Shown piece after piece: positions 4,264-14,973 of a DNA stretch of 64,000 bases. Below the pieces are notes generated by a model, which worked only from the letters and a program-made list of their open reading frames with translations, was not told the origin of the DNA and did no database searches. Source of the stretch: Streptococcus infantarius subsp. infantarius ATCC BAA-102 (GTDB lineage Bacteria; Bacillota; Bacilli; Lactobacillales; Streptococcaceae); contig NZ_DS572692.1 of assembly GCF_000154985.1 (NCBI RefSeq), forward strand, positions 124,001 to 188,000. The letters run 5' to 3'. The translations under genes and the position numbers were made by a program. Numbering within the stretch: position 1 is the stretch's first letter; every line of letters begins with the position of its first letter.

Positions 4264-5731
4264 TCACCAAGTTAACCTATAACCAACAACCTTTTGTTTT
4301 CCTTCTCTTAAATAAGAAATATCAAATGACTTGTAATATTTTGATATTTCTTTCTTAAGCTTAGGAATTATATTTGCAGTTATATGCCTAGGTGTATAGG
4401 TTGATTTTAGACCAAGTTTGTCTCTAAAATCATCTAAAGAAAATTCAATCATTTTTGAATCAAGATTATTTTCTATTTCATCATTTAATATTTTGGAATA
4501 TTTGCTAGACCAAGATTTTAATGCTTCAAATCTAAAATTATTTCTATCAATAAATTTATCTAAGGCTTTAACTGTTTGGTTTTGAGATATTCCTTGACTA
4601 TGAGTATACAACATAGTTGTTTCATAATTAGCATGTCCAATACGTTCCATAATTTCTTTTATAGCAACTTTCATACCTTCACTTTGTAAATAGGTAATAT
4701 GGATATGTCTAAAGGAATGAGGGGTTACATGCTTTGTCGGTTTGAAACCGTATCTCTCTTCGCAGTTTTTAATAAGATCAGTTTCAACACGAGTAAGTAC
4801 TTCCCGGAAAGAATGCGAAGTTATTGGTGAACCATATTCTGTTCTAAAAACACTCTCAGAGAATGTAAATGCTTCGCAAGGATTTTCAATCGCATAGCGG
4901 TCAAACTCTTCACTTCGTTGTATAGTCCTTAATATAGCATCACAAGCCACTTTAGGTAAAGCAACATCTCGATCAGCATTTATTGCTTTAGTTTCATCAA
5001 AGTAGAATTCTGAAACTTTCAAATCATGATATTGTAAACCCTTATCAATATGTAGTATACCTCTCTCAGCATCAAAATCTTTCTTTGTAAAAGCAGCTTC
5101 CCCGATTCGCAGTCCTGAAAATAGTAAAACTATAGCCAAGTCATAGTAATTCGGGTTTCTTCTTCGACTTAGTGTTTCAAAGAAAGCTCTAATTTCATGA
5201 ATTTATAAAAACTCTGCTTCTCGTTTTTTCTTTGTTTCACGCTTTTTCTCAAGGGACGTTTCTAGCTTTATTACAGACATTGGTGAGAACTGAATAACAT
5301 TATAAAGAACACCATGGTTAAAAATTTTGTTACAAGTGCTTTTTATAGGTAGTCAAACACCTTTTCATCAATAATGGTGTTAAGCGTTCGAGTAAATAAT
5401 CATCACCAATAATTTCACCAAGACGTTCTATCACAAAAGCCTCTCTTTTTATTGTCTGAGGTTTTACTGATACCGACCAGGTTTCTAGCCAACTCATCTT
5501 TAACTCTCCGAAAGTTCTTATCAACTGGGAATTAAATTGAGCTTCACTGCCATTAACTAATCTCTCAATTTTATCTTTGAGCTTACGTTCTGCTTGTTTT
5601 CGAGCGCGACTCGTGTTTTTATGATAACTTACAACAGCTGTCTTCCACTTGCCAGTTAGTGGATCCTTATATTTATCTACAACTTCGTATCGAGTAACTC
5701 CTTTTGAATTAGTTTTTGTTCTATAGTACAT
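4264..5731 (-). pseudogene. int: Tyrosine recombinase (integrase) of the element, broken twice
   Basis: The N-terminal part (from MYYRTKTNSKGVTRYEV) has the AP2-like arm-binding domain and SAM-like core of Tn916-type integrases. The C-terminal part has the catalytic residues: SGLRIGEA with Arg, TPHSFRHIHITYL with HxxR, and GHANYETTMLYTH with the final His and Tyr. Two lesions separate the halves. A frameshift near 5340 (in TATAAAAAGCAC) sends the first part to a stop at 5330-5332, and an in-frame TAA at 5203-5205 interrupts the second part just before IHEIRAFFETL. It should be inactive unless suppressed, so the element cannot be expected to excise by itself. It lies next to the left attachment repeat. 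Confidence 0.85.
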
Positions 5732-5805
5732 TTTCGTTTCCTTAAACTTGAAAAGAAAAATCAATCATAGAAATATAACCATTTTATATTATATCATGAT
5801 TCTTT

Positions 5806-6039
5806 TTATTTTACCGCCCTTTGTTTCCATCTTAAAAACTCTTCAAAGTCTTCCAAATTAATAAAGACTAGTTTATGAGTTGGGTTGATCACGTAATCTT
5901 TAAACTGCTTATTATCTCTCATTTCACCTAACCATCTGTTCAGTGTATATTGATTTAGACCTTCCCATCTCCTCAATATAGCTTTTTTATCTGCCCACTC
6001 AGCTATGCTATTCTCAACCGATACAAATTTAATTTTCAT
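5806..6039 (-). CDS. Putative excisionase / small DNA-binding protein
   Basis: A 77-residue basic protein (MKIKFVSVENSIAEWADKK...) with a short winged-helix-like pattern and C-terminal FEEFLRWKQRAVK. Its size and its place directly upstream of the integrase fit an Xis-type directionality factor of phages and ICEs. I assign it by context and general resemblance; no catalytic motif exists for such proteins. With the integrase broken it may have no present role. Confidence 0.55.
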   Translation of the reverse strand: MKIKFVSVENSIAEWADKKAILRRWEGLNQYTLNRWLGEMRDNKQFKDYVINPTHKLVFINLEDFEEFLRWKQRAVK

Positions 6040-6385
6040 ATTAGTTTCTCTCTATTTTATATTATTAACTTCCGTGGGTATGATTGGTTAAATCATTCAT
6101 GGGCATTTCACCCGCTGTCCTTTAGTGAAGTGTGTGATTTATTCTAAATTGGCATATTTTTTAATGTCGACCTTAACATGATTGCTCAAATGATTAAGAA
6201 AGAGTACTAGAGCATAAATAGAACGAGTTTATGAAAGGAAAATAAAAAAAGCACTCATTAAGTTTCATAACTCAACGGGTGCCGTCCTGATTTAATCACA
6301 AGAGTAGTACTTTTGGATAGTTCATATCTAGCTGCACTTAGCCTTTCAGTGAATTTTCTATTCAACACTGTAATTCAAAGACTTA
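6040..6385. other. Intergenic stretch between xis-like gene and etfA remnant
   Basis: No convincing gene is present. It holds one clear terminator (6244-6282) for the degraded operon to the right and a short imperfect inverted repeat (TTCAC ... GTGAA, about 6108-6130) whose meaning is unknown. Confidence 0.6.
6244..6282 (-). terminator. Rho-independent terminator after the etf remnant
   Basis: On the minus strand a stem of about 14 bp (GCACCCGTTGAGTT with AACTTAATGAGTGC, one mismatch and two G-U pairs) is followed by seven T. It ends transcription coming from the acyl-CoA dehydrogenase/etf remnant. Confidence 0.7.
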
Positions 6386-6487
6386 TTAAATTTGTAAATT
6401 TAATTCTGTTAAAAACTCCTTTACATCCCCAACATAGGCATAATCAGAGATATCAAAAATAGGCGCATTTCTATCACTGTTAACAGA
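6386..6487 (-). pseudogene. Remnant of etfA (C-terminal end of electron transfer flavoprotein alpha)
   Basis: In this frame the sequence reads NSDRNAPIFDISDYAYVGDV followed by KEFLTELNLQI and a stop. This matches the C-terminal FAD-binding end of EtfA proteins (INxDxxAPIFxxADYGIVGD). Everything upstream of the conserved Asn-Ser/Thr-Asp is gone and the frame joins the etfB remnant out of phase. The terminator at 6244-6282 follows, so the original operon end is preserved. Confidence 0.7.
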
Positions 6488-6681
6488 ATGGACTTTTTAT
6501 TCTCCTCCGGTCCCATTGAAAGTATAATAACTTGACCGCCATAATATTCTCTCAGGCTTAGTACAACTTCAATTGCATTCTTATCATAGGGATTCATTAT
6601 CCCTATGGTCCCATTTCTCTTTAAATTATGTGTATTAGGATCTAGACTTACCTTCGTGGAACTTGGTACCTGCTTTTGCAA
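6488..6681 (-). pseudogene. Remnant of etfB (electron transfer flavoprotein beta)
   Basis: The translation KQVPSSTKVSLDPNTHNL, then IGIMNPYDKNAIE and GGQVIILSMGP match the N-terminal 65 residues of EtfB (KQVPxTxxVxxDPxTxxL, NPxDxxAxE, VxxLSMGP). The native start is missing and after MGPEENKKS the reading frame runs into unrelated sequence at the junction with etfA. It is a deletion scar, not a functional gene. Confidence 0.75.
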
Positions 6682-7177
6682 TTACACAATATACCTCTGC
6701 AAGACCACCATTTGTAATCATTACTTTACTCCCGTTAATTATCCAATAATTATCTTGATAGAAAGCTTCAGTTCTCATATTACGTATATTGGTTCCACCC
6801 GATGGTTCAGTTGAGGAAAAGCCAAATATACATTGGTTTCTCTGCGGAAGATATTGCTCCTTTAGCCTATCTTCCGCAAATCTTTTTATCTGATCAATAG
6901 TTTTATAGTGTCCTTCAAGTATACAACCAATTGAAGCACTTCTTTTCGAAATTTCATAAACCACCTCCCAGGCAATATCATAATCAAAACCAGAGCCACC
7001 ATATTCTTCGGGTATTGTCAGAGATAAAAAGCCAAAATTCACCATTTTAGCGAATAATCCTTCTGATAGATTTCCAGTTTCATCTATAAATTTCTAGTAC
7101 TGAGCTATCTCTAGATCCGCAAATTTACTAACTGATTCAAGTAAAAGTTCCTTTGTCAAATTATCATTACTTTTCAA
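6682..7177 (-). pseudogene. Remnant of an acyl-CoA dehydrogenase gene
   Basis: A TTG at 7175-7177 behind a GGGGGAG ribosome-binding site would open the gene. The frame is stopped by TAG at 7094-7096, then continues with the typical acyl-CoA dehydrogenase N-terminal domain: FGFLSLTIPEEYGGSGFDY, the FSSTEPSGGTNIRNM flavin/substrate loop, and WIINGSKVMITNGG. It is cut at about residue 165 of roughly 380 and fused to etfB sequence. The order dehydrogenase-etfB-etfA is that of butyryl-CoA dehydrogenase operons of anaerobic clostridia, so it was probably acquired and then collapsed. Confidence 0.8.
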
Positions 7178-7331
7178 TATTTTTCTCCCCCATCCTAACT
7201 AATATTTTCATTAGTATCTATGATAGATTTTTATTCCACGCTATCTCAGCGTGGACAGTGATATATCAGATGTGTTCCTCTATATTATTTCTTAGTCTAA
7301 TTTACTTTTATAATGTTAAGAAATACCTATC

Positions 7332-8288
<957 letters not shown>

Positions 8289-8317
8289 CTAATGAGCTCT
8301 CGTTTTAGTTGTTCCTT

Positions 8318-9268
8318 TTAAAAAATATAATCATCATCAAGCATTTCCTCTGCTTCTCCCATTAGATATCCTGCACCAACCTGTGAAAAGAAATCATGAT
8401 TTGCTGTTTCAATAGAAATGCCATTCATTACAATTGGATTTACATCATTTGCTGAGGCGTCTTTAAAATATATATCAAATCCCATATTCTGCAGAGATTT
8501 ATTTGCATTGTACTTCACGAATGTTTTAATATCTTCCACTAGTCCGATTTCAGAATACACTTCTTCAGTATATGCAAACTCATTGTCTAACAGCTCCTCT
8601 AGAAAGGAATACATCCAATTAGTAAAGTTTTCTTGTTCAGTAATGGCTAACTCGTTAAAGTCCTGTCTAAACTTATACCCTAAATATGTACCATGTACTG
8701 ATTCATCTCGTATAACCAATTTAATGAGTTCTGCTAAGTTAGCTAATTTATTCTGACCTCGGTACCAAAGGGGGATAAAGAAATTGCTATAATACAATAT
8801 TCCTTCTAAAAAGACACTTGCAACCTTAACCTGCATAGGTGTACCGTTCTGATAGATCTCATTAATCTTTCTAGCTTTAAATTGCATTCTACGGTCATTG
8901 TTCATCCAATTATATATTTCTTCTATATCTTTGAATGTATTAAGTGAAATTAAAATAGTTCCATATGTTTTGGCATGGATGGATTCCATAAAGGTGAAGT
9001 CGCTCAACACAGCCCTCTCTTTTAAGGTTCTTGCATTTTTCTTTAATGCATATAAGCCCTCTTCGGATTGTAACGTATCCAATAAGGCAAGTCCTCCAAC
9101 TGCTTTTTTCACCACCTCCTTTTCCATATCAGAAAGTTTTCTCCAATCTAATAGGTCATTCGAAACAGGAACCCTTGTATCCAACCAGAACTGCGCAGTT
9201 GCCTTATCCCAGACATATTCATCTAATTCATCTTCTATAAGCTGCCAATTCATTGTTTTATTTAGCAT
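8318..9268 (-). CDS. nrdF: Class Ib ribonucleotide reductase beta subunit NrdF (all metal ligands present)
   Basis: NrdF houses the dimetal centre and the tyrosyl radical used by NrdE to reduce ribonucleoside diphosphates. This 316-residue copy keeps every expected residue: Asp64 (LLDTLQ), Glu95 and His98 with radical Tyr102 (FMESIHAKTY), Glu155 (FLEGILYY), Glu189 and His192 (IRDESVHGTYLGYK). The C-terminal acidic tail ending DDDYIF is the NrdE-docking peptide. It is the last functional gene of the minus-strand run nrdI-cupin, nrdE, nrdF-like, tpx, nrdF. Start is ATG at 9268; an ATG five codons later is possible. It is divergent from housekeeping streptococcal NrdF in many core positions. Confidence 0.9.
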   Translation of the reverse strand: MLNKTMNWQLIEDELDEYVWDKATAQFWLDTRVPVSNDLLDWRKLSDMEKEVVKKAVGGLALLDTLQSEEGLYALKKNARTLKERAVLSDFTFMESIHAKTYGTILISLNTFKDIEEIYNWMNNDRRMQFKARKINEIYQNGTPMQVKVASVFLEGILYYSNFFIPLWYRGQNKLANLAELIKLVIRDESVHGTYLGYKFRQDFNELAITEQENFTNWMYSFLEELLDNEFAYTEEVYSEIGLVEDIKTFVKYNANKSLQNMGFDIYFKDASANDVNPIVMNGISIETANHDFFSQVGAGYLMGEAEEMLDDDYIF

Positions 9269-9342: not shown

Positions 9343-9834
9343 TTATAGTGATTTAACAACCTCAATAGGCTGATCATAATTAGGAGATTCATTGATATTT
9401 TCAAGATATTCTGTATATTGAACAGTATTTTGAGAATCTAGAACCAAGACTGCCCTAGCTAGTAAATGCCACTCATCCATGAGAACACCAAATGCTTTTC
9501 CAAAACTATTATCATAATAGTCAGAAAGTAAAACGACATCTAATCCTTCAGCACCACACCACCGCGCCTGAGCAAATGGTAAATCAACTGATACAGTGAT
9601 AACAACCGTATCCTCTAGTTCTGATAATTCCTTGTTAAATGTACGTGTTTGTGTTGAACATAAATCAGTCTCCAGTGAGGGAACAATTGAGATAACTTTC
9701 TTCTTCCCATCAAAATCACTTAAACTTTTAAGAGTTAAGTCACTTGACATTAGTGTAAAATCTGACATTGTATCACCAACATGTAATTGTCTCTCTGCTG
9801 AAACTGTAACGGTTTTCCCAAAAAATGTTGTCAT
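9343..9834 (-). CDS. tpx: Thiol peroxidase, atypical 2-Cys peroxiredoxin (Tpx family)
   Basis: Tpx reduces hydrogen peroxide and organic peroxides using thioredoxin. The 163-residue protein has peroxidatic Cys59 in [15 protein letters not shown] (family: PSIDTPVCSTQTRxFN) and resolving Cys93 in ARWCGAEGL. The Thr normally at peroxidatic Cys minus 3 is replaced (TDLC: Thr56 is kept three before Cys59, but Pro is lost). It is placed between the two nrdF genes, an unusual partner for a ribonucleotide reductase. It could protect the radical centre or remove peroxide made by NrdI; this is inference. Confidence 0.88.
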
Positions 9835-10199: not shown

Positions 10200-11153
10200 C
10201 TAGAACTCGTAATCAGATTCTTCCATAATCTCTTCATCGGTTGAAGCTGATTTGTTACTAGAGATGGATAAATGATGCCTGCGTAAGTTATTTAACCGAA
10301 AATTTATTCCTTTCAACACCTCAGCATTAAAATTAAATTGCTCTTTCAATCCAATCCCCATGAGAATATTATTAGCTTCCTGCAATATTAAGTTTTTAGC
10401 GATTATTTTACTCTCCTTCAAATAATAAAAGTCACCAATTAAATTAATCCCCAACTTTACAAAGTGGTTGACAGTTTCATAACCCCATGCTTTGAAGCGT
10501 TCAACCTCTTGCAGGTCTGATTCTTTTAGTAGAAGCTTTATCTTATGACTAAAATAAAAGCAATGCAAGGACTCATTACGGATAATCATCTCCAACATAC
10601 TTCCGAGGTTATTAAATTCTTTATTAATCCATAACTCAAAAAGGTATGCAAGATAAGCATAGTTCAGGAGACCTTCTATACATAGCGCTATGAACCTTTT
10701 TTTAACTAGACTCGATTCTCTATAAACAGTATTAATATCATTCAAATATTCCAGTACACGTGATTCATTGTCAACCCACTCAAATGACTTTTTAAGATTA
10801 ATCTCTTTATCAAAGGTGAGCAATATTCGATTATAAGCTTTGGTATTGACCATCTCGATAAATTGAATATTATTTAAAATAGCAACTTCTTGTTGCGAAC
10901 ACTTACCATTTCGAACAATTTCACCTACCTCTATGGACTGATTAGTAGACAAATTCGTTAAAAGTATCAGTAAACGCTTTAATTGTTCTTGTTCCTCCAA
11001 ATTAAGCTTTACCCAATTCGTAAAATCATTTTCAATTGGAATCCGGGTATCCAACCAAAACAGTGATGTAGCTCTTTCCCATACTGCATTGTCAAATTCA
11101 TCCTCGACAACATTCCAGTTAATGGCTCTATAATATAAATAGTTTTTTGACAT
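10200..11153 (-). CDS. NrdF-like protein lacking two metal ligands
   Basis: This 317-residue protein aligns without gaps through the core to the NrdF at 8318-9268 (constant offset of five residues). Two ligands are replaced: Asp becomes Ser69 (LSTNQ) and the first His becomes Asn103 (FIEMVNTKAY). Glu100, Tyr107, Glu160, Glu194 and His197 remain, and the C-terminus ends in an acidic tail ESDYEF. It follows nrdE by nine bases and so is the immediate partner in the operon. The change pattern differs from the known metal-free class Ie proteins, in which glutamate ligands are replaced. It could be a metal-poor radical subunit, a regulatory partner, or an inactive duplicate. Confidence 0.85.
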   Translation of the reverse strand: MSKNYLYYRAINWNVVEDEFDNAVWERATSLFWLDTRIPIENDFTNWVKLNLEEQEQLKRLLILLTNLSTNQSIEVGEIVRNGKCSQQEVAILNNIQFIEMVNTKAYNRILLTFDKEINLKKSFEWVDNESRVLEYLNDINTVYRESSLVKKRFIALCIEGLLNYAYLAYLFELWINKEFNNLGSMLEMIIRNESLHCFYFSHKIKLLLKESDLQEVERFKAWGYETVNHFVKLGINLIGDFYYLKESKIIAKNLILQEANNILMGIGLKEQFNFNAEVLKGINFRLNNLRRHHLSISSNKSASTDEEIMEESDYEF

Positions 11154-11162
11154 GGTACCTCC

Positions 11163-13319
11163 TTAAATCATACAAGATTCACAATTATTTACACTATTGA
11201 ATTCGTCATCTTCCGTATATGTCCGAACATAGTAGAGTGACTTAATCCCTTTTGTCCAAGCATAATTACGAAGACGATTTAAGTCTCGAGTTGTTAATTT
11301 TGAACTTCCTTGCTTCTTCCACTCATAGATACCTTCAGGTAATACAGAACGCATGAAGAGTGTCAAGCTCATTCCTTGATCAATATGTTGCTGAGCTTTA
11401 GCGTAGATATCAATAATTTTTCGTTGATCCATGTTGTAAGCTGTCTTATAATATTTAAGTGTTTTATTCGACAAGTATGGAGCAGGATAAAAGATTGAAC
11501 CAACTTTTTTCTCTTGACGATTTTCAATTAATTGAGTAATTGGGTGAAGAGATGCACTAGTCTCATTGATATAAGAAATAGAACCATTAGGAGCAATAGC
11601 TAGTCTATTTCGATGGTAGAGACCATCTTTCATGACATCTTCTTTTAATAACTGCCAATCTTCAATTGTCGGTAATAAGATATTTTCAAATATCTTTGCC
11701 ACTTTTTCAGATGTAAAATGAAATTCCTTCGCTAGATAATAATCAAAATGGCTTCCATCAGCATAGCGAGAGTTTTCAAAATCATGAAAAGTTTCGTTCT
11801 TTTCCACTGCAATTTGGTGACTGGCCTTTAAAGAGTAATAGTTCATAGCCAGAAAGAAAGCATCTACAAATTCTAAAGCTTCATCAGATTCATAGTCAAT
11901 ACCATTAAGAGCTAAAACTGTATGAAGTCCCATTGCACCAAGCCCAATTGTATGATAGAGCGAATTTCCATTAGCCACAGTTGGAACTTCACTGATTGCA
12001 CCCCGATCAGTAACAGTGGTAAGCGCCCGAATCGCATATTCTATAGACTTTCCAAAATCTTTAGATTTTATAAGATTTACCATATTCATTGAACCAAGGT
12101 TGCAAGAAATATCGGTCCCCACCTTTTTATAACTTAAATCTGGATTTAATATAGACGGTTCTTGTGGTTGAAGGATTTCTGAGCAAAGATTACTCATAAT
12201 AATTTTTCCTTTTACAGGATTAGTTCGATTAGCTGTATCAATATTTAAAATATATGGATAACCAGATTCTTGTTGTAAACGTGAAATTTCCTGTTCTAAT
12301 TCACGAGCATTAATTACAGTTTTTTCTATTTCATCATTATCCACCATAGTATCGTACTCTTTCGTCAGATCAACATAAGAAAACGGGATACCATAAACTC
12401 GCTCAACGTGATAAGGATTAAAAAGATACATTGGTTCATTTGTTTTAAGCAGCTCATAATATTTGTCAGGTACTACTAATCCTAGCGATAATGTCTTAAC
12501 TCGAATTTTCTCATCTGCATTTTCTTTTTTAGTAGATAAAAATTCCAGAATATCTTGGTGAAAAACATTAAGATACACTACTCCTGCACCATTTCGTTGT
12601 CCTAGTTGATTACTATAGGAAAATGAATCTTCCAGTAATTTCATAACAGGCAGCACACCCGAAGAAGCATTCTCAATTTCTTTTATAGGGGATCCTGTTG
12701 CACGTAGATTGGATAGATTAACCCCTACGCCTCCACCTATTCTAGAAAGCTGTAAAGCTGAATTAATATTCCGACCAATCGATAGCATAGAATCTTCAAT
12801 ATCAATAAGAAAACATGAAACCATTTCTCCCCGCCTCTTCTTACCTGCGTTTAGAAATGTTGGTGTTGCAGGTTGATATCTTTGGGAAATAAGTTCTTCT
12901 AGTATCTTATGAGCAAGATTCCTATCCCCATTCGCAAGATACAAAGCATTAAATACAGCACGATCCTCAAAGTTTTCTAAATAATATTTCGAATCATTCG
13001 TTTTCATTGCATACTGATTATAGAATTTATAAGCTGCCATGAAACTCTTAAACTCGAATCCGTAGTTATAGGCAAAATCAAAGAGTTCCTTAACAAATGC
13101 TCTGCTATTTTTACCATAAGAATCAATGATACTTTCTTCAATATAATCATGTGCGATAAGATAATTTAGTTTTGCATCAATGTTATCGAAGGACTTCAAA
13201 TTATTTTTAATTTCGGTATTTAAATATTCGTATAGCGCTTCTTTGTCGTAGTGCAAGGGAATCTGCCCTTCCACTGGTACATTTAACATATTGTTAAGAA
13301 TAAAGTAATCTTGTGTCAT
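11163..13319 (-). CDS. nrdE: Class Ib ribonucleotide reductase alpha subunit NrdE
   Basis: NrdE is the catalytic subunit that converts NDPs to dNDPs. At 718 residues it has the family length. Visible are the redox pair Cys169 (MVSCFL) and Cys406 (DISCNLGS), the active-site triad Asn377-Cys379-Glu381 (SNLCSEILQ), the Tyr pair for radical transfer near the end (SLYYVRT) and the C-terminal CESC shuttle (Cys713, Cys716). No ATP-cone activity domain is present, as usual for class Ib. It lies 20 bp downstream of the nrdI fusion and nine bases upstream of the NrdF-like gene. No nrdH glutaredoxin gene is adjacent. Confidence 0.95.
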   Translation of the reverse strand: MTQDYFILNNMLNVPVEGQIPLHYDKEALYEYLNTEIKNNLKSFDNIDAKLNYLIAHDYIEESIIDSYGKNSRAFVKELFDFAYNYGFEFKSFMAAYKFYNQYAMKTNDSKYYLENFEDRAVFNALYLANGDRNLAHKILEELISQRYQPATPTFLNAGKKRRGEMVSCFLIDIEDSMLSIGRNINSALQLSRIGGGVGVNLSNLRATGSPIKEIENASSGVLPVMKLLEDSFSYSNQLGQRNGAGVVYLNVFHQDILEFLSTKKENADEKIRVKTLSLGLVVPDKYYELLKTNEPMYLFNPYHVERVYGIPFSYVDLTKEYDTMVDNDEIEKTVINARELEQEISRLQQESGYPYILNIDTANRTNPVKGKIIMSNLCSEILQPQEPSILNPDLSYKKVGTDISCNLGSMNMVNLIKSKDFGKSIEYAIRALTTVTDRGAISEVPTVANGNSLYHTIGLGAMGLHTVLALNGIDYESDEALEFVDAFFLAMNYYSLKASHQIAVEKNETFHDFENSRYADGSHFDYYLAKEFHFTSEKVAKIFENILLPTIEDWQLLKEDVMKDGLYHRNRLAIAPNGSISYINETSASLHPITQLIENRQEKKVGSIFYPAPYLSNKTLKYYKTAYNMDQRKIIDIYAKAQQHIDQGMSLTLFMRSVLPEGIYEWKKQGSSKLTTRDLNRLRNYAWTKGIKSLYYVRTYTEDDEFNSVNNCESCMI

Positions 13320-13339: not shown

Positions 13340-14143
13340 TTATATTCTTGCTCCACCAAGTGGGGAATATTCTGACTGTTTAGCTAATAAATCCTCTTTT
13401 TTACAGTAGAACTCAATATAGAATTCAAGATCTTCAGAAAGAGGATTAATCTTATGCCAGGCTTGTGGTTCAACAAATGGAGGTTGATTTTCACAATTAA
13501 AAACATGTTCTGCAATAACTTGTCCGTCTTCTTTTAGCTCATAAAACTTCAATTCTCCCGAAAGAATTGTCATCTTTCCCCAAGTCCCACTCTTGGTATT
13601 ATGTCTATGACGTAAAGCATGCAGAATTGTAGTTGCTGTCATGTTTGGCAACCGCCTATATGAAACAAGTTCTGAACTATATCTCCACTCTATCATTCTC
13701 ATATTTAATCTATGAGCAATTCGTTTTATGTCTTCCTCAGTGCCTCTCAACTCAAATTCATCTAGCACAGGAAAACCAAATTCTTCAGAATATTGATGAG
13801 CTGTAAGACAGAATTGTTTATTAAAATTTCGATTCCCACTCCCAATAATTCCAAGACAGTGTTTGCTATTATCTTTATGAGCTATAAGCCTACGCAATGG
13901 AGTCGTTAAAATTTCAACATCCCCCGTATCAAGACCATTCCCCCCTTCAAGATAGGCAGGCAGAAATGCAAAATAGGGATCATTAATTTTGAATGTCGAA
14001 GGTTCACCACTATTGACCAAGTCTTTTACATTTATATAATTCAGGCTTTCTTGAAATTCTTTTTGTAGGTATCTATCCAGCCTTTCGAGAAAACTAGTTG
14101 TATTTCCACTTAGACTGATGTAGTATACTTGGATAGTTTGCAT
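13340..14143 (-). CDS. nrdI: NrdI flavodoxin fused to a TehB-N/DUF1971-type cupin domain
   Basis: Residues 1 to about 148 are NrdI: the phosphate loop YYISLSGNTTSF, the FLPAYLEGGNG loop, and GSGNRNFNKQF before the flavin. NrdI supplies superoxide or peroxide to activate dimanganese NrdF. Residues about 165-253 match the N-terminal cupin domain of TehB proteins (DUF1971): HNTKSGTWGKMTILSG, KFYEL, then NQPPFVEPQAWHKI and FYIEFYCKKED, with His181 and His230 as possible metal or substrate contacts. Free-standing streptococcal NrdI is only about 160 residues. The frame is continuous with no internal stop or frameshift. The gene leads the operon and its promoter has an FNR-type box. Confidence 0.85.
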   Translation of the reverse strand: MQTIQVYYISLSGNTTSFLERLDRYLQKEFQESLNYINVKDLVNSGEPSTFKINDPYFAFLPAYLEGGNGLDTGDVEILTTPLRRLIAHKDNSKHCLGIIGSGNRNFNKQFCLTAHQYSEEFGFPVLDEFELRGTEEDIKRIAHRLNMRMIEWRYSSELVSYRRLPNMTATTILHALRHRHNTKSGTWGKMTILSGELKFYELKEDGQVIAEHVFNCENQPPFVEPQAWHKINPLSEDLEFYIEFYCKKEDLLAKQSEYSPLGGARI

Positions 14144-14217
14144 TTTGTTCTCCTATTGTGTATAATATCTATATATGGTGTTTTGTTGTTACATTGAATA
14201 CTATATATGGTATTTAT

Positions 14218-14259
14218 ATTATATATAATCCCTAACTAAAAAAAATTGACAATAGTCAA
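14218..14259 (-). promoter_or_regulatory. FLP/FNR-box promoter of the nrdI-nrdE operon
   Basis: The perfect palindrome TTGACAATAGTCAA (14246-14259) lies exactly 22 nt upstream of TATAAT (14218-14223, minus strand). That is the spacing expected for an activator centred near -41.5. The same box contains TTGACA in plus orientation, where it could act as the -35 of the divergent flp gene. Two other promoters in the island share the 22-nt geometry. Confidence 0.75.
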
Positions 14260-14301
14260 GTTTTTTTGAAATTATTTATTATTTTTAGAGAGATAAAAGA
14301 T

Positions 14302-14973
14302 ATGGCTAATATAGGGTGTGTTCATAGAGTTCCACTTTTTAGTAACCTTGCCAAGGATGAACAAAGCGGTGTTCAAAATCTATTACATCACAAAACATTT
14401 CAAAAAGGGGAGATAGTATTTTCTCCTGACAGTCAAGAACAATTATCTATTGTTTCCGTTGGGGCTATGCGAATTTATAAATTAAGCAGAACAGGTAAAG
14501 AACAGCTCATACGTATTGTAAGAGAAGGTGAGTACGATGGAGAAAATTATCTCTTTGGTCTTACTAATGAAACTCTTTATGCAGAAGCTATAAAAGAAAC
14601 CAAAGTCTGTATCCTTTTTAAATCTGACTTCAATAAGCTAATTGAGCTATACCCTCAACTTGGATGTAAATTACTTCAATTAAATGCACTAAAGTCCTTA
14701 GAAGTCGAAAAGCAGCTTCAGCTTTTAGCAATTGATCATATCGAGGATCGCTTAGCCTCTTATCTAAGTCAATTGTCTTCTTTGCCAACTATTATTGACA
14801 ATGAGACGGTGACAGTGCCAGTCTCAATGAAGGAATTAGCAAGTTATTTAGCTACTAGCCCAGAGTCTATCTCCCGGAAACTAAAAGTATTTCAAGAAAA
14901 AGGATTAATAAATAGAAAAGGTAAAAAAATCCAGCTATTAAAATCATTTTGGGAAGAGTTCGATTTCTTATAA
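14302..14973 (+). CDS. CRP/FNR-family transcription regulator (FLP type), copy 1
   Basis: A 223-residue regulator with an N-terminal cyclic-nucleotide-binding-like beta roll (GEIVFSPDSQEQL, GEYDGENYLFG) and a C-terminal winged helix (PVSMKELASYLATSPESISRKL). The recognition helix has the E-x-x-S-R pattern that in FNR reads TTGAT half sites. Cys6 and Cys103 (counting from MANIGC) match the two-cysteine layout of lactobacillal FLP, which switches by a disulfide; the four-cysteine iron-sulfur ligand set of E. coli FNR is absent. I chose ATG 14302 over an upstream in-frame ATG at 14266 because the protein family starts about six residues before this Cys and a AGAGA site lies upstream. Confidence 0.85.
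   Translation: MANIGCVHRVPLFSNLAKDEQSGVQNLLHHKTFQKGEIVFSPDSQEQLSIVSVGAMRIYKLSRTGKEQLIRIVREGEYDGENYLFGLTNETLYAEAIKETKVCILFKSDFNKLIELYPQLGCKLLQLNALKSLEVEKQLQLLAIDHIEDRLASYLSQLSSLPTIIDNETVTVPVSMKELASYLATSPESISRKLKVFQEKGLINRKGKKIQLLKSFWEEFDFL

Follow-up and report, generated by a model that had tools for sequence, protein, structure and literature searches.

A conserved NrdF paralogue with lost metal ligands, paired with an intact NrdF in Lactobacillales: a probable heterodimeric radical subunit of a class Ib ribonucleotide reductase

The closest described counterpart of the gene pair reported here is the yeast class Ia ribonucleotide reductase (RNR) pair Rnr2-Rnr4, whose second small subunit, Rnr4, is described as having no metal-ligating side chains, as inactive alone and as required for the active one to fold correctly (PMC3267527). 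In bacteria, a β-β' heterodimer with half-site reactivity was found with the truncated β' of E. coli C600, and a heterodimer has been speculated for the short nrdB of 'Candidatus Liberibacter asiaticus' (125 aa, matching the 3' end of the long gene at >99% identity); a bacterial β-β' dimer with a truncated β is a prior idea, and we do not claim the arrangement as such to be new in bacteria (PMC5154197). Class Ie R2 proteins are reported to have three glutamates replaced and a radical Tyr turned into DOPA, and can be the sole RNR of a species (PMC11846895). The locus described here shares with yeast Rnr2-Rnr4 a second small subunit with metal ligands lost (PMC3267527), but it is bacterial and class Ib, lies in an operon with nrdI and nrdE, is often plasmid-borne, and forms a heterodimer that is so far a proposed one. 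It resembles the Liberibacter short nrdB and E. coli C600 β' in being a bacterial β form without an active site (PMC5154197); unlike those truncated class Ia forms, it is a full-length, old and separately evolving paralogue with conserved features of its own.

We analyzed a 64,000-nucleotide stretch of the Streptococcus infantarius subsp. infantarius ATCC BAA-102 genome (contig NZ_DS572692.1, positions 124,001 to 188,000), hereafter the window. On its minus strand lie, in order, nrdI with a fused C-terminal DUF1971 domain (13340..14143), nrdE for the class Ib RNR catalytic subunit (11163..13319), a 317-aa open reading frame, nrdF', encoding β' (10200..11153), a thiol peroxidase gene (9343..9834) and an intact nrdF encoding β (8318..9268). 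A Crp/Fnr-family regulator (14266..14973, plus strand; family name taken from plasmid annotation) is divergent upstream. The nrdE stop lies 9 bp ahead of the β' start. An earlier note on the window had assigned β' and β to the same operon, and where relatives have no thiol peroxidase gene, β' and β are indeed close or abutting, whereas in the window they are separated by that gene and a 365-bp gap. The thiol peroxidase gene also occurs in 3 of 12 relatives within the genus (L042-L044) and was not seen in the other nine genus loci; on a Lactococcus plasmid (L054) it is a fragment, and the nrdI-DUF1971 frame is split.

In L042-L045 nrdI has frames of similar length (253-267 aa), in L046-L053 of about 157-172 aa. 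The window regulator and nrdI are 98% and 95% alike to those of S. henryi (L045) and 78% and 70% alike to those of L042, and the window stretch from nrdE to nrdF is 96-99% alike to L042, so recombination seems to have shaped the window cassette, its breakpoint lying near the junction of nrdI and nrdE. By eye, the stretch downstream of the pair (4264-8300) seems to contain a split tyrosine integrase, an interrupted lactate dehydrogenase, and pieces of acyl-CoA dehydrogenase and EtfB, as would a mobile island in decay; a search for tRNA genes in the 64-kb window gave none. Since each of the 12 carriers in the genus has, besides the cassette, a third NrdF and another nrdE match (partial in G170), the cassette represents a second RNR.

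Residues are compared here under the E. coli numbers D84, E115, H118, E204, F208, D237, E238, H241, W48 and Y356, which we take to mark the equivalent positions. The partner β has all six metal ligands and the radical Tyr (Asp64, Glu95, His98, Tyr102, Glu155, Glu189 and His192), whereas β' has Ser69, Glu100, Asn103, Tyr107, Glu160, Glu194 and His197. Both sets agree with the earlier note, which had described an NrdF paralogue with two of six ligands lost alongside an intact NrdF. That note missed two further losses: Asn193 of β', immediately ahead of the second ExxH motif, replaces the relay Asp (Asp188 of β), and nothing in β' corresponds to the relay Tyr close to the C-terminus (Tyr301 of β). 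Altogether, β' is without the D84, H118, D237 and Y356 equivalents, and retains W33 and the C-terminal D314-Y315-x-F317.

The best matches of β' are class Ib NrdF proteins. Pfam Ribonuc_red_sm matches both β' (118 bits) and β (253 bits), while the class Ib NrdF model TIGR04171, with a cut-off of 355 bits, is passed by β at 415 and failed by β' at 161.6. An AlphaFold model of β' (pLDDT 85.7, pTM 0.83) and fold searches show an R2 fold. The nearest solved structure by sequence is Streptococcus sanguinis NrdF 4n83, and no solved structure lies within the β' family; yeast Rnr4 was not among the best 50 matches of either β' fold search, which is uninformative either way. From an ordinary class Ib NrdF such as 4n83, β' differs in its metal and radical-path residues as well as in score (162 bits against the cut-off of 355). 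The six ligands of class Ib (D, E, H, E, E, H) are not all present, two being lost in the window β' and at least the Asp in all 39 β' compared below. Class Ie proteins have their three metal glutamates replaced (VPK or QSK), whereas Glu100, Glu160 and Glu194 are present in the window β', which upholds the earlier distinction from that class as described in its literature (PMC11846895). The radical tyrosine conserved in class Ie is found in only 27 of the 39 β'. Class Ie R2 and β' are alike as NrdF relatives whose metal site is altered and whose operon includes NrdI, but β' loses the D84, D237 and Y356 positions and adjoins an intact NrdF. Like Rnr4, it is a paralogue of an active small subunit with metal ligands lost.

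The residue comparison covered 126 different proteins with a length of 290 aa or more (39 β', 38 paired β and 49 other NrdF), assigned to groups by profile score and not by the residues compared; Leuconostoc pieces, rows below 290 aa, class Ie rows and orphan rows were excluded from the counts. The ligand Asp (D84) is gone in 39/39 β', as are the relay Asp (D237; Asn in 21, Gly in 18) and the relay Tyr (Y356), the latter being present in 38/38 paired β and 49/49 other NrdF, with a loose β' alignment at this position. In all paired β and other NrdF, the six ligands are complete and the radical Tyr, D237 and Y356 are retained. The shared losses are these three positions and not the Ser/Asn pair, as Ser occurs in 12/39 β' and Asn in 12/39. 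Seven β' miss just the Asp of the six ligands, yet are already without D237 and Y356, so radical transfer may have gone first and metal ligands later; their loci place six of them in genomes of a second family within the order (f2) and one in G524.

A search for genomes with the same pair, as the earlier note had proposed, found β' in 12/284 genomes of the genus at E 1e-50 or better, with 46-98% identity and open frames; named carriers include Streptococcus alactolyticus, S. henryi and S. oralis. Regulator, nrdI, nrdE, β' and β occur in the same order in all 12 and on the Lactococcus plasmid, nrdE being interrupted in the G104 cassette. The search was widened with a profile of 12 β' proteins, which revealed β'-β tandems in the six f2 genomes and in G524. 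In the latter (L116:6382-8899) the cassette reads nrdI-β'-β without nrdE, and two other nrdE genes are present in the genome. Named genomes, scanned in turn, yielded 31 loci, of which 8 are streptococcal; the other 23 belong to lactobacilli, Enterococcus, Periweissella and Leuconostoc, and there the match was mostly to β, with a more diverged β' just upstream. The order nrdI-nrdE-β'-β was found in 23/23 of these (the Leuconostoc locus with broken frames) and in 6/6 f2 loci.

The pair is often plasmid-borne. With a threshold of E 1e-60, streptococcal-type β' was found on 44 of 72,556 plasmid records, 31 of them from Lactococcus and 13 from Enterococcus, and the lactobacillar type in 174 records at E 1e-50, of which 166 had at least 60% identity; hosts of the 174 include Lactiplantibacillus (114), Latilactobacillus (30) and Pediococcus (15). 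Together, the two types are present on over 200 plasmids, and the paralogue noticed in the window has relatives across Lactobacillales. The β clade was found in 212 plasmid records; the plasmid sets were compared through the 16 records that appear in both the β' and β listings, not record by record, and in 16/16 β follows β' on the same strand within 1 kb. The earlier idea of a metal-competent and a metal-impaired β served by one NrdE is borne out in many species, under purifying selection. A phage origin was rejected, as the best of 576 phage records was 31% identical and one viral-contig scan was without a relative. Another degenerate NrdF was observed in G051 (L130:7946-9343), where it is fused to NrdI, and in G044 (L129:8023-9418), where it overlaps nrdI; it has Ser and Asn at the same two ligand positions plus additional losses. 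Both genomes were searched for NrdE (PF02867) without a match, and such an R2-like protein without R1 merits its own study.

We propose that the cassette encodes a class Ib RNR whose radical subunit is probably a β-β' heterodimer with one catalytic and one dummy half, similar to yeast Rnr2-Rnr4. In this scheme, β (8318-9268) would hold the metal pair, be activated by NrdI and carry the radical, and β' (10200-11153) would be a catalytically dead partner that completes the dimer via exchanged N-terminal arms, presumably helps β to fold or to load metal, and presents NrdE with another C-terminal tail. A radical could then enter NrdE from one half of the dimer alone. The pair would work as Rnr2-Rnr4 does, but would have arisen separately within class Ib NrdF. 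A heterodimer was one of three ideas in the earlier note and fits best, with dimerization suggested by gene pairing and arm conservation. It is favored by the pairing, the trees, the shared losses with a kept tail, the arm, dN/dS values of 0.11-0.22, the plasmid tandems and the nrdI-β'-β cassette of G524. Against it, gene pairing would equally fit a regulator acting as its own homodimer, helix B of β' is of merely average conservation (36% versus 38%), and dN/dS is 0.48 in the two nearest comparisons. In addition, β alone looks complete and might act as a homodimer.

The C-terminal tail of NrdF is the part that binds NrdE, and it bears on whether β' might instead form its own homodimer and serve as a decoy or brake, competing with β for NrdE through its intact tail and tuning radical supply. 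The W48 position and the D-Y-x-F tail are retained in 39/39 β', the tail while most of the β' core drifts, and a single operon would hold the ratio fixed, both of which suit a decoy. We nevertheless consider this reading unlikely, because it predicts neither a paired β clade that is never alone in the sample nor a dimer arm that is best conserved in β' and least conserved in β.

The first of these points was examined in 395 genomes of Lactobacillales with a paired-β profile. The scores split, with 14 genomes at 605 bits or more and the next at 533, and β' lies directly upstream of β in 14/14 paired-clade genes. No second NrdF was found in 16/16 inspected loci of the 17 next-best hits (stretches of about 4 kb each, 2.6 kb in one). 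Among 378 genomes of the class, no paired β was found outside the order: the 35 genomes that passed E 1e-120 belong without exception to Lactobacillales and score below 500 bits. In the samples searched, the paired β clade is confined to the order and never alone. A tree was built from 57 proteins. Its 21 β' are set apart from the rest by a single branch (98/96), with a monophyly that depends on long branches, and its 16 paired β group as one clade (100/100). A first tree of 62 proteins (of 130 rows, clustered at 88% identity) agrees with this one, long-branch warnings being given for both trees; the smaller tree leaves out a Leuconostoc β' piece, two class Ie proteins and two orphans. The β' and β subtrees are alike in outline, with Lactobacillaceae grouping with Enterococcus and f2 with Streptococcus (the latter fork being weak in β, 92/75 in the first tree), which fits co-inheritance from one ancestral pair.

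As for the arm, NrdF monomers exchange an N-terminal arm in the dimer and helix B is said to be at the core of the interface; the source gives no residue numbers for the arm, and the limits used here (residues 6-14) are our own choice. The arm is the best conserved region of β', at 86% identity versus 38% overall (692 sequence pairs, not independent of one another), or 2.3 times the whole. It is the least conserved region of paired β (48% versus 73% overall), and is about average in other NrdF (70% versus 76%). Such a kept β' arm and drifting β arm would be expected if the arm of β' packs on the slowly evolving β and that of β on the rapidly evolving β'. Paired β starts about three residues later (a median of 7 residues before the conserved Trp, versus 10 in β' and other NrdF), and its arm score may be depressed by this. 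Codons are identical for identical residues at a rate of 0.54 in the arm versus 0.45 expected and 0.42-0.43 elsewhere, so the DNA level seems to contribute a little to arm conservation. Other parts of β' that exceed its average are segment 15-50 (57%), helix C (58%) and the tail (64%), and helices E (32%), F (39%) and B (36%) do not, the helix B value being contrary to the simple expectation for a dimer interface. The first ten residues of the β' model are unsure (pLDDT <50), as might be the case for the exchanged arm of a lone chain.

Less probable still is a role for β' as a maturation factor outside the working enzyme, which would hold one metal ion or dock NrdI and pass metal or oxidant to β. 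One metal site could persist in the 21/39 β' (Streptococcus and f2 types) that have the E115, E204, E238 and H241 equivalents all present. However, the E238 and H241 equivalents are gone in the other 18, of lactobacillar type, so metal holding is not common to the family, and the NrdE tail is retained everywhere. We give very little credence to β' as an active radical subunit of a new kind, using a mononuclear metal or a modified Tyr107 as in class Ie, although the window protein does have Tyr107 and four ligands. The covalent radical suggested in the earlier note, or a class Ie-like one on Tyr107, is unlikely, as the Tyr is replaced by Cys, Ile, Val or Phe in 12/39 β' and two steps of the radical path, at the D237 and Y356 positions, are lost in 39/39.

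Finally, β' evolves fast, with 45-68% identity where β shows 80-88%, and its dN/dS against the two nearest relatives is 0.48, on 9 and 12 changes; β values are 0.05-0.10 where computable. A decaying duplicate kept by chance would show such speed, but we set this explanation aside as scarcely credible, since dN/dS between the window and three other relatives (L044, L045 and L054) is 0.11-0.22, the frame is open in 12/12 genus relatives and the tail is kept in 39/39.

The paired β has peculiarities of its own. At seventeen positions, paired β and other NrdF each have a fixed residue, and the two residues differ; Tyr159, Asn162, Gly103, Leu106 and Ile97 of β are among these positions, several of which adjoin ligands or the radical Tyr in sequence. 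Position 159, which by counting from E204 we take to be E. coli F208, is Tyr in 38/38 paired β and Phe in 49/49 other NrdF. Judged from these residues, paired β may depend on its partner or use altered chemistry, and β' may be what makes a β with a second tyrosine beside the metals work. For the E. coli F208Y variant, a published table gives 0.0% activity (PMC10645729). We suggest only tentatively that the cassette represents a new RNR subclass, with an obligate β-β' radical subunit in which one active half is hard-wired and β itself has altered chemistry.

Regulatory sites upstream of nrdI were compared with Fnr-type and NrdR consensus sequences. In the window, a perfect Fnr-type palindrome, TTGA-N6-TCAA, lies at -116 of nrdI (14246..14259). 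Palindromes of this kind are found at -98 to -117 in 9/11 Streptococcus-type cassettes, with one mismatch in the other two, and in 0/7 upstream regions of other cassette types. An NrdR-like box (14198..14213) matches 13/16 positions, which 0.5% of single-base shuffles equal, and a second box 32 bp further (14166..14181) matches 12/16. Boxes of this kind, in many cases a pair spaced by 31-32 bp, score better than single-base shuffles (<5%) in 15/18 regions and do not in L063, L080 and L122. The Crp/Fnr-family regulator lies beside the cassette in all 12 genus relatives, and the Fnr-type site suggests that oxygen or redox state may call for the second RNR.

In databases, β' is filed under the name of the ordinary β subunit. 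No account of this conserved full-length pair was found in the open-access literature searched, as judged by titles and abstract starts and with subscription papers mostly outside that scope; the earlier view that such a pair would be new stands to this extent, but a heterodimer with a truncated β had been proposed in bacteria before. In the portion dealing with these genes, an L. pentosus plasmid paper names both nrdF and makes no remark on the pair (PMC6662855).

It is still actively debated how class I RNRs make use of their two halves, and cryo-EM is reported to place β2 for radical transfer with only one α at a time (PMC11482829). A natural heterodimer with a dead half, if confirmed, would let each half be altered separately and so put that question directly, and it would be a yeast-like arrangement with an origin independent of yeast. 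Plasmids of food bacteria spread a spare RNR, and a radical-making part composed of two sister proteins suggests a division of labor like that of yeast.
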